Assembly (NCBI GenBank): GCA_943355025.1
Contig: CALRDW010000007.1
Location: 1 to 49,036, forward strand
Reading direction: 5' to 3'
Source of the DNA: Candidatus Magasanikiibacteriota bacterium
GTDB lineage: Bacteria; Patescibacteriota; Patescibacteriia; Magasanikbacterales; 2-02-FULL-50-9b
DNA length: 49,036 nucleotides
The first letter of the stretch is position 1; the number at the start of each line of letters is the position of its first letter. A program made the position numbers and the translations under genes. The notes under the pieces were generated by a model that saw nothing but the letters and a program-made list of their open reading frames with translations, made no database searches and was not told where the DNA came from. This document shows positions 5,027-43,640 of this stretch, piece after piece.

Positions 5027-6142
5027 TCAACCCACCGCGAGAGACAACCCAACATTCTTTTCAGGAAATGTTGAACTGCCCACGTCCATGCTAGCCTGGC
5101 GGCCATCAGAATACCAGCCCACGTACGGGACATCAGCCGTCTGTCGGAAACAGCAGCCAAATAAATAAATACTACTATCTGTTGCTAAAGCAGCTCGATT
5201 GATTACTTTATTTTTCTGGTTAAGATTCGTTGCAAAAAGAGTGAGCCAGTCTTCTGGAGTCATGCCTCGTTCCTCTGAGTAAACAGGATTTGCTTTTAGG
5301 AGATCTACATAATCGTCTGGAGACTTTCCTGCTTCTAGCTGGTCACGACCTGCCTGTACCATTCCTTTCCCTTCTCGTGGAATACTCAGATTTTCTTGAA
5401 TAAGAAGAATGGTGTAACCAGGAAAGGGTGAAGCTGACGATGACTCAAAAAGAATATCTTTTTTTGTTTTTCCATAATCATTCTCCGCACCAACTCGCTC
5501 TAGAAAATAAAGGAGTTCTCCGCTTTTGTCTGCATTAATATAGTCATTAAACGCATACAGAGGTTCTTCCTCGTTGAGTTCTAAGTTGCTTCCGTCTTCT
5601 GCGAGAAGATTGTTTTCTTTCTTGTGTTTAAGAATGAGGTTGCTTGTTTTTTCTCGAAGAGAGTCGAGGGAAGATCCGAATGGAACAATGAGAAGGCGCG
5701 TAAATCCTTGATCTATCTTTTGTTTGATATTAGGAATGGAGAGGAAGTGATTTTTGATGGCTTCTTCGGTTGGAACTTCGTAAAAATTATTATCTATTGC
5801 AGTGAGGCCGAGTTTATTGTCTTTAGTTTCTAGAAAGTTTATTTCTTGAAGAGATTTTATTTGAGAAGTGTATCCTTTTTCGATAAGATGTTCGAGGATT
5901 GGTTTGACGGAGTCTCGTGAGAGCGAATCTATTTTCGCACGAGCTTCTGCTGCCATGGCAAGGAGATCTTCTTTAGAAACTTCTTTCTGACGCTTTAAAT
6001 TAGAATCCGAATTCTCCCCGAGGATCTTTCTATATTTATGTACGCCTCCCTCTCCGAGGAGTTCTCTAACAATCTCTCTGTTCTTAAGAGGATCTGTGTC
6101 TTTAAACTCTGTAAGAGGTTTTTGAAAAGGATTCGGAAGCAT
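5027..6142 (-). CDS. MLPNPF-family protein, copy A, with variable C-terminus (371 aa)
   Basis: No named domain recognised. It is a paralogue of 42366-43478: residues about 95-166 match at 64 of 72 positions, and the start MLPNPF and the block GEGGVHKYRKIL are shared. The last 50 residues, after LNQ-N-VIN, match at only 12 of 50 positions yet have identical length, keeping D-S, L, G, V-P, W, Q-A and a final A-V. That is the layout of a diversity-generating-retroelement target with a C-type-lectin-like tail (inference; no RT nearby). No signal peptide. The start is set by a promoter whose -10 ends 6 nt before the ATG; a longer reading from 6178 would begin inside the hairpin and upstream of the transcript start. 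Confidence 0.85.
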   Translation of the reverse strand: MLPNPFQKPLTEFKDTDPLKNREIVRELLGEGGVHKYRKILGENSDSNLKRQKEVSKEDLLAMAAEARAKIDSLSRDSVKPILEHLIEKGYTSQIKSLQEINFLETKDNKLGLTAIDNNFYEVPTEEAIKNHFLSIPNIKQKIDQGFTRLLIVPFGSSLDSLREKTSNLILKHKKENNLLAEDGSNLELNEEEPLYAFNDYINADKSGELLYFLERVGAENDYGKTKKDILFESSSASPFPGYTILLIQENLSIPREGKGMVQAGRDQLEAGKSPDDYVDLLKANPVYSEERGMTPEDWLTLFATNLNQKNKVINRAALATDSSIYLFGCCFRQTADVPYVGWYSDGRQASMDVGSSTFPEKNVGLSLAVG

Positions 6143-6148
6143 AGGAGC

Positions 6149-6178
6149 AGTATAACACCTGAGTGAACGTATCCCCAA
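6149..6178 (-). promoter_or_regulatory. Leaderless promoter of copy A
   Basis: On the minus strand: -35 TTGGGG (6173-6178), 18-bp spacer, -10 TATACT (6149-6154), then 6 nt to the ATG. The -35 is formed by the end of the hairpin arm. The predicted transcript begins at or next to the start codon. Confidence 0.6.
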
Positions 6179-6248
6179 AGAATTAAATATTACTTCGACG
6201 GGAGCTCGTGTTCATCTCTCCCTGAGAAGTAATATTTAATTCTTTGGG
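6174..6248 (-). repeat. Hairpin repeat family, copy A
   Basis: Perfect 23-bp outer arms (6174-6196 / 6226-6248). Inside lie a conserved 3x3 internal loop (TCA / GTC in gene sense), a 5-bp inner stem GGGAG/CTCCC and a 13-nt loop. The same structure recurs at 7229, 13663 and 43510 with different arm sequences. Similarity to copy D continues on the far side to about 6307. Confidence 0.9.
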
Positions 6249-7201: not shown

Positions 7202-7228
7202 GATGACGTCCACCCGAATGAACGTATA

Positions 7229-7305
7229 CTCAAAAATAAAAACTATTGCTTCGACGGGAGCTCCTGTTTATCTCTCCCTGAGAAGTAATAGTTTTTATTT
7301 TTGAG
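7229..7305 (-). repeat. Hairpin repeat family, copy B (solitary)
   Basis: 24-bp arms (7229-7252 / 7282-7305) with one non-Watson-Crick position, and the same core and GGGAG/CTCCC inner stem as copies A and C. It sits 1 bp past the infB stop codon at its closest flank similarity and 20 bp from it at the arm. The downstream flank matches the other copies up to GGTGG, then diverges exactly where the -10 box should begin, and no MLPNPF start follows. It may serve as an infB terminator, but there is no T-run. Confidence 0.88.
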
Positions 7306-7324
7306 CGTAGGTTGAATCGCCGCG

Positions 7325-13609: not shown

Positions 13610-13662
13610 ATGAGAATGTGTTGATGCAAGTATAGCACACTTGGGTTATCCCCAACACACGC

Positions 13663-13737
13663 TCAAAAGAATAAAATCTTACTTCTCAGGGAGAGATAAA
13701 CAGGAGCTCCCGTCGAAGTAAGATTTTATTCTTTTGA
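13663..13737 (+). repeat. Hairpin repeat family, copy C
   Basis: Perfect 23-bp arms (13663-13685 / 13715-13737) around the conserved core, in plus orientation. It is followed by the family's promoter and by a truncated MLPNPF start. The arm sequence differs from copies A, B and D but remains fully complementary. Confidence 0.9.
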
Positions 13738-13763
13738 ATATGCGTTCATTCGGGTGGTATACT
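13734..13763 (+). promoter_or_regulatory. Leaderless promoter of copy C
   Basis: -35 TTGAAT (13734-13739) overlaps the hairpin arm, then an 18-bp spacer and -10 TATACT (13758-13763), 6 nt before the ATG at 13770. Same geometry as copies A and D. Confidence 0.6.
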
Positions 13764-39009: not shown

Positions 39010-39062
39010 ACGTGCACGCAGATCAGATCGTCTGGTTCGCTGTTGAAACAAGGAGTTCCTTC

Positions 39063-40751
39063 ATGAAAGCTTTCCGAAACGTGCTGCTCATCGGCGTATC
39101 ATTCATTATAAGCAGTGGCTGTTCTAGTCCAGACTCAACCGTCGGCGGCCCGAGCGATTCGGTCAGCCCAGATGGAACACTTTCCGGCGACGCATCGGAC
39201 GATGGTCAAGACGTCGCCACGACAGACGCAGGGCCTCCGCCCTGCAAAAGTGACGCATTCTGCGACGATGGCGAGGTGTGCACGATCGACACCTGCGACA
39301 GCGTTTCGGGTCAATGCGTCCACACACCGTGGAGCGGCCCGTGCGACGATGACGACGCATGCACTGACGGCGACAAATGTTCGATCGGCAAATGCAAGTC
39401 GGGCAAGTCAAAGCAATGCACGGACAACGATCCCTGCACAGCTGACACGTGCGTGGCGGGCGAATGCACACACAAAGCACTTGACGAGTCGGCGTGCGAT
39501 GACGGAAACGCCTGCACAACGACCGACAAGTGCGTGAACGGCGTCTGTAGTGGCACGACAAAATCGTGCGACGACAATAATCCGTGCACCGTTGACTCAT
39601 GCAGCAAATCAACCGGCAGCTGTTCAAATCAGCAACAGGATGGCGCGCTGTGCGACGATGGAAATGTGTGCACGGTTGGTGATATTTGCCAGGCAGGTAA
39701 ATGTGCAACGGCCCAAAAAGTGTGCAACGACGGAAATCCGTGCACGAGCGATTCGTGTGATCCGCAGCTCGGTTGCGTCTTTACTGACTCACAGGGCGGC
39801 GACTCATGCGAAGACAGTGACCCGTGCACAATCGGCGACAAATGTATCAACGCAGCGTGCCAACCTGGCCCGAAGAAAACCTGCGATGACAATAACATTT
39901 GTTCAAACGATTGGTGCGACAAAACCACGGGCGACTGCCAACACGCCATCTCCGGACAGATTTACTGCTCGGACAACGATGCCTGCACCTTCCAAGATGT
40001 ATGCCTCGGCACAGCCTGCAAAGGTACGCCGAAAAACTGCGACGACGGAAACGCATGCACGGAAGACGTGTGTACGGCGCAAGGTGGTTGCGACCACAAG
40101 GCCTCGAGCGGCGCGTGCGATGACGGAAACCCGTGTTCAGTTGGCGACACCTGCAAAGGTGGTCTCTGCTCGGGAACGCTCAAAACATGCGACGACAATA
40201 ATATTTGCACGACGGACAGTTGCAGCTATGTGAGCGGCAGCTGCACGTACACGCCGTACAACGGAAATCCGTGCGACGACAAAAACTCGTGTACGGTAAA
40301 AGACACCTGCATCCAAGGACAGTGCTTCGGCGACGCCCTTGTGTGCGATGATCAAAACCCCTGTACGACCGAATTCTGCAACCAGGCAACTGGGAATTGC
40401 ACCGTTACGCTGCTCAGTGATAATATTCAGTGCAGTGACAGCAACAACTGTACGCTCGGCGACACCTGCAAAAGTGGTGTGTGCGTTGGCAAAAGCAAGA
40501 ATTGCGACGACGGAAATCCGTGCACGAGCGATTCCTGCCCACCAGCAACCGGCCAATGCGCAAACAAAACGGTCGCCGACGGTATCGCGTGTAATGACGG
40601 GTCAAACTGTACTACAGGCGACACATGCAACGGCGGCTCCTGCGTCGGCATCACCAAAAACTGCGACGACAATAACAAATGTACCAGCGACGCGTGCGAT
40701 GCATCGAACGGCAAGTGTAAAAACGAGCCATTCATACCATGCGTGCCCTAA
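39063..40751 (+). CDS. Cys-rich repeat lipoprotein, 562 aa
   Basis: Signal peptide with lipobox-like ISSGC, then about 60 Ser/Asp-rich residues. Roughly ten tandem repeats of the pattern CDDGN-CT-D-C--G-C-G--K-CDD(N)NPCT-DSC---G-C follow. The repeats are of a type I know from Myxobacteria-like predators and other exported Cys-rich proteins. Each unit has several Cys pairs and Asp-rich turns, suggesting disulfides or metal binding. High GC and a strong SD distinguish it from flanking genes. The start at 39063 was chosen over 39012 because it begins with the signal peptide and follows the SD. Confidence 0.88.
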   Translation: MKAFRNVLLIGVSFIISSGCSSPDSTVGGPSDSVSPDGTLSGDASDDGQDVATTDAGPPPCKSDAFCDDGEVCTIDTCDSVSGQCVHTPWSGPCDDDDACTDGDKCSIGKCKSGKSKQCTDNDPCTADTCVAGECTHKALDESACDDGNACTTTDKCVNGVCSGTTKSCDDNNPCTVDSCSKSTGSCSNQQQDGALCDDGNVCTVGDICQAGKCATAQKVCNDGNPCTSDSCDPQLGCVFTDSQGGDSCEDSDPCTIGDKCINAACQPGPKKTCDDNNICSNDWCDKTTGDCQHAISGQIYCSDNDACTFQDVCLGTACKGTPKNCDDGNACTEDVCTAQGGCDHKASSGACDDGNPCSVGDTCKGGLCSGTLKTCDDNNICTTDSCSYVSGSCTYTPYNGNPCDDKNSCTVKDTCIQGQCFGDALVCDDQNPCTTEFCNQATGNCTVTLLSDNIQCSDSNNCTLGDTCKSGVCVGKSKNCDDGNPCTSDSCPPATGQCANKTVADGIACNDGSNCTTGDTCNGGSCVGITKNCDDNNKCTSDACDASNGKCKNEPFIPCVP

Positions 40752-40804
40752 CCAGCCTGGCGGCGAACGCGCTCGAATCCCCCCTCTAGCGCCTCGCTCA
40801 GCCT

Positions 40805-40860
40805 GCGGCCGTCTGACTCAGATTTTCTTCATCTGTTTCATGCGGCCGCTTTTTCTTTTC
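40805..40860 (+). terminator. Terminator between the Cys-rich genes
   Basis: GCGGCCG (40805-40811) can pair with CGGCCGC (40843-40849), followed by TTTTTCTTTTC. The loop is long, so this is only a moderate call. Confidence 0.5.
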
Positions 40861-40867
40861 TTCGACA

Positions 40868-40896
40868 TTGACTTGCTCACTGTTTAGTGGTAGTGT
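40868..40896 (+). promoter_or_regulatory. Sigma-70 promoter of the second Cys-rich lipoprotein
   Basis: TTGACT (40868-40873), 17-bp spacer, TAGTGT (40891-40896). Confidence 0.65.
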
Positions 40897-40956
40897 ATGG
40901 GGTCTCAACTTCGGCGCGCAGTGCGCTTGAGCTTGAGTCACTGGGAGAGTCAGACG

Positions 40957-42282
40957 ATGTTTAAAAAACTTACACAAGAATTCCTGATTTCTGTGCTCGT
41001 GTGGAGCGCTTTGCTCGAACTGTTCGGCATGAGCGGCTGCTCTGAGGACGTGACAAATTCGGGCCCTGGCGGTATTGCTGAAAATGATGCTGCAACAAGC
41101 CTCGACACGTCGCGTTTAAACAACGACGCAGCGATCAAGTTCGCGGACGAAACCACGTCAGTGCCGCAAGGGACGGACGCGGTTTCGAACGACAGCGAAG
41201 TTGCTATAATCGAACCAGGATCGTTCGGCGCGCCGTGTACAAAAAACACGGACTGCAACTCGACGTATTGCATCGAGACATCTGCCGGTAAAGCCTGCAC
41301 AAAAACGTGTGTTGATTCATGCCCGAACGGTTTTGCGTGTGTGCAAAATTCATCGGGTGGCGGCGACAATGCCTATATTTGCGTCGATCGATTCGCGCGT
41401 TTGTGCGATCCATGCACAACAAACACTGATTGCGCGACGCAAAGCAATGGCGACAATGTATGCCTTTTGTGGGGCGACGCCGGAAGTTTTTGCGGCGTTT
41501 CGTGCATGGCAGACTCGGATTGTGCGGACGACTTCGGTTGCGCCACATATAAGGATGAGAAAACAGGCATCGCGTCGAATCAGTGTCGTCCACTCGGCGA
41601 CGCAGCGTGTTCCTGCAGCCCGCGTGCACAAAAGCTCGGTCTCAAAACCAATTGCGTAAACACGGGTGTCAAAGGCGCTTGTCGGCCGGGATCGCGCGCA
41701 TGCAGCGCTTCTGGTCTCAGCTCCTGTTCTGGTTCGCCTCCAACTTCAGAGAAATGCAACGAAATTGATGACGACTGCAACGGCGCGACCGACGAAGGTT
41801 TGTGCGAAGACGGCAATAGTTGCACATCAGACGTGTGCAACACCGACGGCTCGTGCAAACACAAACAGCTCGATGGTGTTCCCTGTACTGATGGAAGTGT
41901 GTGCACCAAAAAAGACACCTGCGCATCGGGTGTTTGCGTCGGTGGCGACTTCCTCAAATGCGTGGACAACGAAGTGTGCACATCGGACGAATGTGATCCG
42001 GTAACCGGCTGCTACTTCAAACCAGCGCCCGGCCCGTGCGACGACGGCGATGTCTGCACGCTGAGTGACACATGCTCGCTCGGTAAATGTTCGCCTGGCA
42101 CAGAACAAAAAAAGTGCGGCGACACAAATCCCTGCACGCAAGATCTGTGCAATCCGACAAAGGGGTGCTACCACACCTCGAATGACAACGCGCCCTGCGA
42201 AAGCGACGGCAAAAGTTGCACGCTCGACACCTGCAAAAGTGGCCAGTGCGTGCATTTGCCTCAAGGATCAGGGTGTAAATAA
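40957..42282 (+). CDS. Cys-rich lipoprotein with MopE-type motif, 441 aa
   Basis: Signal peptide with lipobox GMSGC. The N-terminal half has spaced Cys motifs (for example GAPCTKNTDCNSTYC). Near residue 270 is EKCNEIDDDCNGATDEG, the putative metal-binding motif of MopE-like proteins (PF11617 type). The C-terminal part has about four repeats of the same CDDG--C-DTC type as the previous gene. GC-rich with its own promoter and SD (GGGAG). Start at MFKKLTQEF; the frame to 40897 is upstream of the signal peptide. Confidence 0.87.
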   Translation: MFKKLTQEFLISVLVWSALLELFGMSGCSEDVTNSGPGGIAENDAATSLDTSRLNNDAAIKFADETTSVPQGTDAVSNDSEVAIIEPGSFGAPCTKNTDCNSTYCIETSAGKACTKTCVDSCPNGFACVQNSSGGGDNAYICVDRFARLCDPCTTNTDCATQSNGDNVCLLWGDAGSFCGVSCMADSDCADDFGCATYKDEKTGIASNQCRPLGDAACSCSPRAQKLGLKTNCVNTGVKGACRPGSRACSASGLSSCSGSPPTSEKCNEIDDDCNGATDEGLCEDGNSCTSDVCNTDGSCKHKQLDGVPCTDGSVCTKKDTCASGVCVGGDFLKCVDNEVCTSDECDPVTGCYFKPAPGPCDDGDVCTLSDTCSLGKCSPGTEQKKCGDTNPCTQDLCNPTKGCYHTSNDNAPCESDGKSCTLDTCKSGQCVHLPQGSGCK

Positions 42283-42365: not shown

Positions 42366-43478
42366 TCAACTTACCGCAGTGGTCACTCCGCGATATTCAT
42401 TTTTTAGAAATGGGTTGCACATCTCAAGAACAGCCTGAGCCTGGGCCTCTCCCCAATCCGCACTTGGTACACTACGGTATCCTGGTAAATAGCTGCCGAT
42501 CAAAAGACTACAGCTATCTCCCCCACTCCTCCAATCATTGATTACGCGATTGTGCTGGTTCAAATTTGTTGTTAACAAGGTAAGCCAATCTTCCGGCGTT
42601 AATCCACGCTCATGCGTATACAGTGAATTTGATAAAAGGCTCGACAAGTACTCATCTGGCGAATGACCAGCCTCGATTTGTTGGCGGCCTCCTTTTATTG
42701 CGCCCTTTTCTGTGCTTGGGATTTGTATATCCTCCTGAATAAGCAAAACATGAAAGCCAGAAAACGGAGAACTTGCATCAGGCTCTTCAAGCAATTCAGT
42801 TTTTGTCCTACCATCATTTCCTGTATTGGTAAACGATTTAGGATAATAGAGCAAATTATTGGTTGTATCACTTTCAACAAAACCCGCTACCGTAAAAAGC
42901 GGTGTTCTTATATCGAGCTCTAATTCGCTGCCATCCTCTCGTAAAAGTTTGTTTTCCATCACGTGTTTGAGTAAAACTTTTTTTGTTTTTTCTCTGAGAC
43001 TGTCGAGTGATGTTCCAAACGGCACAATAAGCAGCCGTGTAAATCCTTGATCTATTTTTTGTTTGATATTCGGAATTGAAAGAAAGTGTTTTGTAATTGC
43101 TTCTGCGCTCGGAACTTCATAAAATTTATTGTCGATTGCGGTGAGACCAAGTTTCCCATCTTTTGTTTCTAGAAAGCTTATTTCCTGAAGAGATTTTATT
43201 TGCACTGCATATTTTTTTTCAATCATTTTTTCAAAACTGAGTGCAAAGCCGTCACGAGAAAGAGAATCTTTTGACGCGACAGCTTCTGCCGCAAGAGCTT
43301 TGAGTTCTTCGAATGATGTATCAACCGACTTACTGTGCCCTGCTCTGTTATCGCCTAGAATTTTGCGATATTTATGCACACCTCCCTCGCCTAAAAGACT
43401 TCGAACAATCCCCTCATTCTTAAGAGGGTCTGTGTCTTCTAATTTCGGCAGCGGTTTTTCAAAAGGATTAGGAAGCAT
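42366..43478 (-). CDS. MLPNPF-family protein, copy D, with variable C-terminus (370 aa)
   Basis: Paralogue of 5027-6142, with the same start, KIDQGFTRLLIVPFG core and length. A middle acidic region (about residues 185-250) is only moderately conserved. After LNQHNRVIND the last 50 residues keep D-S, L, G, V-P, W, Q-A and A-V and change nearly everything else, as in copy A. GSYLPGYRSVP resembles C-type-lectin-like DGR target tails that I recall from CPR genomes (memory, unverified). No signal peptide. The ATG lies 6 nt after a TATACT box; the earlier in-frame ATG at 43514 is inside the hairpin. Confidence 0.85.
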   Translation of the reverse strand: MLPNPFEKPLPKLEDTDPLKNEGIVRSLLGEGGVHKYRKILGDNRAGHSKSVDTSFEELKALAAEAVASKDSLSRDGFALSFEKMIEKKYAVQIKSLQEISFLETKDGKLGLTAIDNKFYEVPSAEAITKHFLSIPNIKQKIDQGFTRLLIVPFGTSLDSLREKTKKVLLKHVMENKLLREDGSELELDIRTPLFTVAGFVESDTTNNLLYYPKSFTNTGNDGRTKTELLEEPDASSPFSGFHVLLIQEDIQIPSTEKGAIKGGRQQIEAGHSPDEYLSSLLSNSLYTHERGLTPEDWLTLLTTNLNQHNRVINDWRSGGDSCSLLIGSYLPGYRSVPSADWGEAQAQAVLEMCNPFLKNEYRGVTTAVS

Positions 43479-43484
43479 GGGAGC

Positions 43485-43514
43485 AGTATAACACCTGAAT
43501 GAACGTATACTCAA
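43485..43514 (-). promoter_or_regulatory. Leaderless promoter of copy D
   Basis: On the minus strand: -35 TTGAGT (43509-43514), 18-bp spacer, -10 TATACT (43485-43490), 6 nt to the ATG. The -35 is the end of the hairpin arm. Confidence 0.65.
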
Positions 43515-43586
43515 AAGTAAAAACTATTACTTCGACGGGGGCTGTCGTTTATCTCCCCCTGAGAAGTAATAGTCTTTACTTTTGAG
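43510..43586 (-). repeat. Hairpin repeat family, copy D
   Basis: 24-bp arms (43510-43533 / 43563-43586) with one wobble. The inner stem is GGGGG/CCCCC where the other copies have GGGAG/CTCCC, so both sides changed together. Loop and 3x3 internal loop are conserved. Similarity to copy A continues to about 43648. Confidence 0.9.
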
Positions 43587-43640
43587 CGTGTGTTAAATCG
43601 GTGTATTGAGCTATTCATAAACTTCCGAATCCTGTTGAAA

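Follow-up and report, generated by a model that had tools for sequence, protein, structure and literature searches.

Two paralogous genes, A and D, of a Candidatus Magasanikiibacteriota bacterium are probably retired targets of a diversity-generating retroelement (DGR), which acts in trans in a CPR genome of about 1 Mb and whose reverse transcriptase (RT) would be switched by slippage. It is also probable that across the CPR and in at least one DPANN archaeon the DGR RT is a contingency gene, in which independently acquired repeats at a few sites would form a stochastic switch between a diversifying and a frozen state of a repertoire of variable proteins. The window, i.e. the whole stretch of 49,036 nucleotides analysed here, is one contig (C7) of a genome of 988,540 bases in 33 contigs, which is 98% complete. 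Both copies were called as open reading frames, and their hypervariable part is better set as the last 37 codons, the stretch aligning with template repeats elsewhere in the genome:

5027 to 6142, minus strand: target-family copy A, 371 amino acids, ATG at 6142, starting with MLPNPFQKPL
5030 to 5140, minus strand: presumed former variable region (VR) of A, 37 codons, with scrambled design codons and the adenine-specific signal against the surviving templates gone
42366 to 43478, minus strand: target-family copy D, 370 amino acids
42369 to 42479, minus strand: presumed former VR of D, 37 codons; of the two copies, D has drifted more

The original prediction, made from the letters of the window, had the two proteins matching at 64 of 72 core residues and, free of gaps, at 12 of the last 50; this pattern stands, including the gap-free 12 of 50, but a recount in a pairwise protein alignment gives 63 identical core residues out of 72. 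The 12 C-terminal identities compare with a mean of 3.3 after shuffling (12 or more in 1e-4 of shuffles), and the D-S, L, G, V-P, W, Q-A and A-V positions named as fixed are present in the alignment as described. Adjoining copy D (39012 to 42282, plus strand), two proteins of 579 and 461 amino acids are rich in cysteine repeats of the Dicty_CTDC type (PF00526, best E 1e-49), which is unusual in a bacterium.

That the window holds no RT was stated correctly, and RT genes are found on other contigs of the same assembly. The proposed search of the genome for a DGR RT and a template repeat located both on these other contigs: RT pieces were detected with PF00078 on C13, C24 and C30, and the accessory gene bAvd (PF22296, E = 9.3e-12, above the cut-off) lies on the strand opposite to the RT, an antisense layout repeated in five related loci. 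The cassette on C24 reads target copy with VR, template repeat, antisense bAvd and RT; the one on C13 has the same order, but there target and template run together. Template-like repeats were also found downstream of target copies on C28 and at C2:85034, and there are two types of template, C24/C13 and C28/C2. The features of a DGR found for the system in this genome are a DGR-kind RT, an RT-adjacent template repeat and an accessory Avd. A tblastn search with D yielded 43 matches in the genome and the target-family profile 23, with more than 20 dispersed gene copies, each downstream of a hairpin-promoter module. Because 16 contig ends lie inside family copies, the repeated target family is the cause of the assembly breaks. 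Since RT genes, template repeats, bAvd and many paralogous targets occur in the same assembly, the system acts from elsewhere, as had been supposed. A group II intron RT was rejected, since bAvd, templates and adenine bias stand alongside the RT. The RT on C30 (L027, 3039-4196) is a third DGR-like RT, truncated at its N-terminus and situated directly behind an ORF ending in ..GFRLERRVPLST; it may be what remains of a second lineage of DGRs.

VRs were compared with the template over 111 bases, and differences at adenines and non-adenines were contrasted by a Fisher test. Nine distinct dispersed VRs differ from their template mainly at its adenines (13-24 of 28-30; p from 4.9e-6 to 7e-13). Against the C24 template, seven distinct VRs have 16-24 of the 30 adenines and 7-10 of the remaining 81 bases replaced, the best being L039 (24/30 against 7/81, p = 7e-13); further VRs gave 2.8e-11 (L055), 1.7e-10 (L029) and 1.1e-9 (L052). 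The VR of C24 itself and that of C21 fit the second template, with 13 and 15 of its 28 adenines and 5 of its remaining 83 bases replaced; here p was 2.1e-7 for L048 and 4.9e-6 for C24. The identical VRs of C28:1-552 and of the copy at C2:37k were counted once, and two cases were excluded from this count of fresh VRs, namely L028 (p = 7e-4) and the C13 target copy running into the template, which could stem from recombination or from the joining of sequences at a contig end during assembly. Among the fresh VRs, column entropy is 1.29 bits at template adenines against 0.31 elsewhere. Many of the leftover non-adenine differences are common to all fresh VRs. One example is a T in place of C in GCGGYGGGG close to the 3' end, which recalls the difference between IMH and IMH* in known DGRs. 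The fresh copies also have in common a downstream element, CGG(C/T)GAAAAGTAAC..ACn(T/C)CGG.GT..GCTGCCGG, and a leader, GAGCAAAAGCAATTATAATCCCCACCG, both present even where no template follows (L026 9046-8830 on the minus strand, L042 560-760, L029 1820-2040, L040, L039, L043). Neither had a match in Rfam, and nothing credible among known RNA families was found near the templates; A and D in the window lack the downstream element.

In A and D, the differences are spread over all bases and are not concentrated at the adenines of either surviving template. Copy A differs from the C24 template at 18/30 adenines and 36/81 other bases (p = 0.11) and from the second (C28) template at 32/83 non-adenine positions (p = 0.016), and D differs at 18/30 adenines and 48/81 other bases (p = 0.56). 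The check that the original prediction had proposed, namely whether the differences fall at template adenines, was thus answered in the negative, and A and D as fresh targets of the surviving templates were rejected. This result, as well as the missing RT in the window, would suit ordinary diverging paralogues, such as surface adhesins, whose C-termini change rapidly under positive selection and which have nothing to do with a DGR. We consider this highly improbable, as A and D belong to the family and share the 37-codon frame of copies plainly bearing DGR VRs, and their variability lies exactly in the template-adenine codons. Between A and D, only 1 of 20 design codons (those with a template adenine at position 1 or 2) is identical, compared to 7 of the 17 other VR codons, whose divergence is about that of the gene body. 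Over ten old copies including A and D, identity is 8% in the adenine-codon columns, 41% in the other VR columns and 49% in the gene body (permutation p = 5e-5), and therefore the drop in identity between A and D is not plain drift; equally strong variation at the non-design codons of the old copies was looked for and not seen. The column identities of old and young copies are moreover correlated (rho = 0.73).

It could be argued that another template, missing from the assembly, still acts on A and D as its current targets. With 16 contig ends inside family copies, repeated cassettes may indeed be unassembled, and A has kept the third-base pyrimidine at 9 of 10 template AAY codons. Against this, A and D show as much drift in their non-adenine codons as in the gene body, and the template-like 3' end common to the fresh copies, GTTGCTGGYGCGGTGGGG, is kept in neither of them, so that we regard a missing template as quite unlikely. 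From these sequences, we conclude that A and D are most likely former DGR targets, which carry an old footprint and not a fresh one. The assignment of their tails to DGR variable regions is thus upheld insofar as they would be targets of a system in trans, but not as to a fresh adenine signature. Because both this signature and the template-like 3' end are lost, we infer that the system has long ceased to reach the two copies, which escaped further rewriting and drifted.

The target protein had no Pfam match and no match among PDB profiles. Two AlphaFold models (pLDDT 82.6 and 84.5) gave no significant Foldseek match against PDB and BFVD, a C-type lectin match being insignificant (E = 8.7). 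Lectin-type VRs end in G(V/F)RxAV, and so do the relatives of the target in nine genomes of the order; by analogy with other DGR targets, the target is a putative ligand-binding protein. About 60 nt upstream of the target copies, as well as of several orphan 5' fragments, a hairpin of about 80 nt with a conserved inner stem-loop is found, followed by TATACT and ATGCTTCC(T/C)AATCC. Its 21-bp arms are variable but compensating, since a hairpin's own arms pair at 20.5 of 21 positions and swapped arms at 14.9 of 21. The window contains four such modules:

6174 to 6248, minus strand: hairpin module upstream of A, with a 21-bp outer stem and the inner stem GGGAG/CTCCC, then TATACT 8 nt before the ATG
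43506 to 43590, minus strand: hairpin module upstream of D, the same module as that of A, with different yet complementary arms
7225 to 7309, minus strand: orphan hairpin module upstream of a NUDIX gene, with no target gene behind it
13658 to 13742, plus strand: orphan hairpin module, together with the promoter and initial codons (MLPNPFE...) left from a target copy that is now lost

Apart from these sites, hairpins occur at L028, L029, L030, L031, L033, L038-L040, L045, L047, L049-L051, L053, L054, L056 and L058. The module may be an element of dispersal or recombination.

Neither of the two family RTs in this assembly is in frame at the site referred to as S1 below. In the C13 RT, reading is open to either side of a GA/G tract, at which the frame changes; in the C24 RT, a (GA)9 tract marks the change of frame, the catalytic part is lost, and there is an internal deletion in addition. 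A full-length, in-frame RT of the family was not found in this assembly (98% complete), and no PF00078 match in it is a complete open frame. Relatives of the RT carry the motifs GIPIGNLTSQ and YGDD, and in three related genomes of the order (GA)10 stands just upstream of G(I/L)P(I/L)GN(L/V)TSQ, in all cases out of frame and in two different phases.

A scan of genome contigs provided 80 related RT loci from the CPR and one DPANN genome (an archaeon), and the counts below should be read bearing in mind that each MAG shows one allele and that the loci are phylogenetically related. Repeats prefer three sites: S1 just upstream of GxPxGN(L/V)TSQ, S2 about 200 nt upstream, and S3 in the N-terminal leader. 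At S1, the tracts consist of GA (5-22), CA (7-17), poly-G (9-13), CAGT/GTCA (17-23), AGCC (12-14), AGAC (16) or AGCA (8); Peregrini- and Peribacteria instead mostly have AC/CA repeats at S2. S3 is a poly-G tract, present in 27 of the 42 RT loci of the window's order; upstream of it stands the conserved leader MPQQITLFEY..NGN, in in-frame and out-of-frame cases alike. In L061-L117, poly-G of 9-13 was seen at -560 to -700 from the motif, behind a conserved short leader of the form MPQQITLFEY..NGN or MxNRxF. The leader poly-G might act as a separate switch of translation or frame. Under strict thresholds, 49 repeats were counted: 27 within the 100 nt that precede the motif (8.0 kb), 19 at other places in the RT, and 3 in the remainder of 556 kb. 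A length rule gave 43 repeats in 88 kb of RT and 6 in 467 kb of other DNA, which makes the RT repeats 38-fold denser than those of the flanking DNA. Thirty viral RT loci, taken as a control, had no true repeat tract. Assembly noise was rejected as the origin of the repeats, given several unit types at few sites in many independent assemblies.

The reading frame is associated with the repeat: of 29 RTs with a repeat at S1, 7 are in frame, as against 27 of 31 repeat-free RTs (Fisher 1.2e-6). The former fraction is compatible with one third, and the three phases at the repeat (7:12:9) are compatible with chance. It is unlikely that the repeats are merely tolerated insertions in a flexible loop of the RT, without switching, and that a dying element has left the out-of-frame RTs as pseudogenes. 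In favour of tolerance, in-frame insertions of other sequence exist at the repeat site upstream of GLPLGNLTSQ in other RTs of the order (L065, L066, L067, L071, L082), those in L066, L071 and L082 resembling dispersed palindromic repeats (ATTCCCGC..GGGAATGAC), and decay is visible in the additional deletion of the C24 RT and in L131/G038, which lacks the N-terminal part. A tolerant loop, however, would favour units of 3 or 6 nt, yet none of the 43 RT repeats counted by the length rule has such a unit, all being of 1, 2, 4 or 5 nt, and units as different as GA, CA, G, CAGT, AGCC, AGAC and AGCA stand at one site across lineages. Also against this reading, 20 of the 22 out-of-frame RTs are otherwise intact on both sides of the tract, and in-frame and out-of-frame alleles occur in RTs which are 98% identical in amino acids and 91% in nucleotides (L190 with (GA)10 in frame, L193 with (GA)6 out of frame). 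Short repeats can also be slippery, and out of frame is the commonest state (22/29), which would agree with a programmed ribosomal frameshift site, or a two-chain RT, still yielding active enzyme from out-of-frame genes. This we hold to be very unlikely: a programmed shift fixes one direction, repeat units and lengths vary freely here, and repeat-free RTs are mostly single open frames; programmed frameshifting was rejected because all three phases are used. The DGR RT thus shows features of contingency genes, i.e. an intragenic repeat with a unit that is no multiple of three and ON/OFF alleles in close relatives, and the pattern points to slipped-strand phase variation of the RT, a mutator, although the switching itself is read from sequence. 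According to this model, replication slippage in the tracts would switch the full-length RT on and off, rare ON cells would run hypermutation and rewrite the VRs, OFF cells would keep selected variants, and old target copies would drift.

Multi-target trans DGRs and DGRs of the CPR are known from cyanobacteria (PMC7517822), Thiohalocapsa (PMC10907252) and a global survey (PMC8144416). With these and DPANN systems the present one shares the RT, bAvd, template repeat and C-terminal adenine-directed variation, and with the multi-target trans DGRs also dispersed paralogous targets served in trans and fossil targets with remnant homology. The present system departs from known DGRs in that simple repeats, found in every reading phase, stand at fixed sites of the RT gene and that bAvd lies on the strand opposite to both target and RT. 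Moreover, a single gene is present in at least nine fresh and roughly a dozen retired copies within a genome of about 1 Mb, and the target family has no Pfam or PDB relatives. Contingency loci, such as the tetranucleotide repeats of Haemophilus and poly-G of Campylobacter and Neisseria (PMC2651432, PMC6321876), likewise carry, inside the gene, repeats whose unit length is no multiple of three (poly-G, GA, CA, tetranucleotides); roughly a third of their alleles are in frame, and the halves are otherwise intact. In contrast to them, the gene switched here would be a mutator rewriting other genes instead of a surface antigen or methyltransferase, and the hosts are CPR and DPANN. As in phasevarions, which rely on phase-variable DNA methyltransferases, a phase-variable master enzyme would act on many loci, but by rewriting the VRs of target genes and not by epigenetic control. 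No paper linking DGRs to phase variation, slipped-strand mispairing or contingency loci was found in the open library searched; a 2017 CPR survey (Retroelement-guided protein diversification) was outside the scope of this search, and prior notice is possible there.

To our knowledge, it is an open question what regulates DGR hypermutation and what keeps a good variant from being overwritten. If true, a slippage switch in the RT would answer both parts of it, could be looked up in any metagenome through its short reads, and would place the mutator itself among the phase-variable genes. Surveys demanding a full-length RT frame miss many CPR elements, as 22 of the 29 RTs with an S1 repeat among the sampled loci are out of frame. 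As for the window, its two odd paralogues would become dated fossils of a diversified repertoire.
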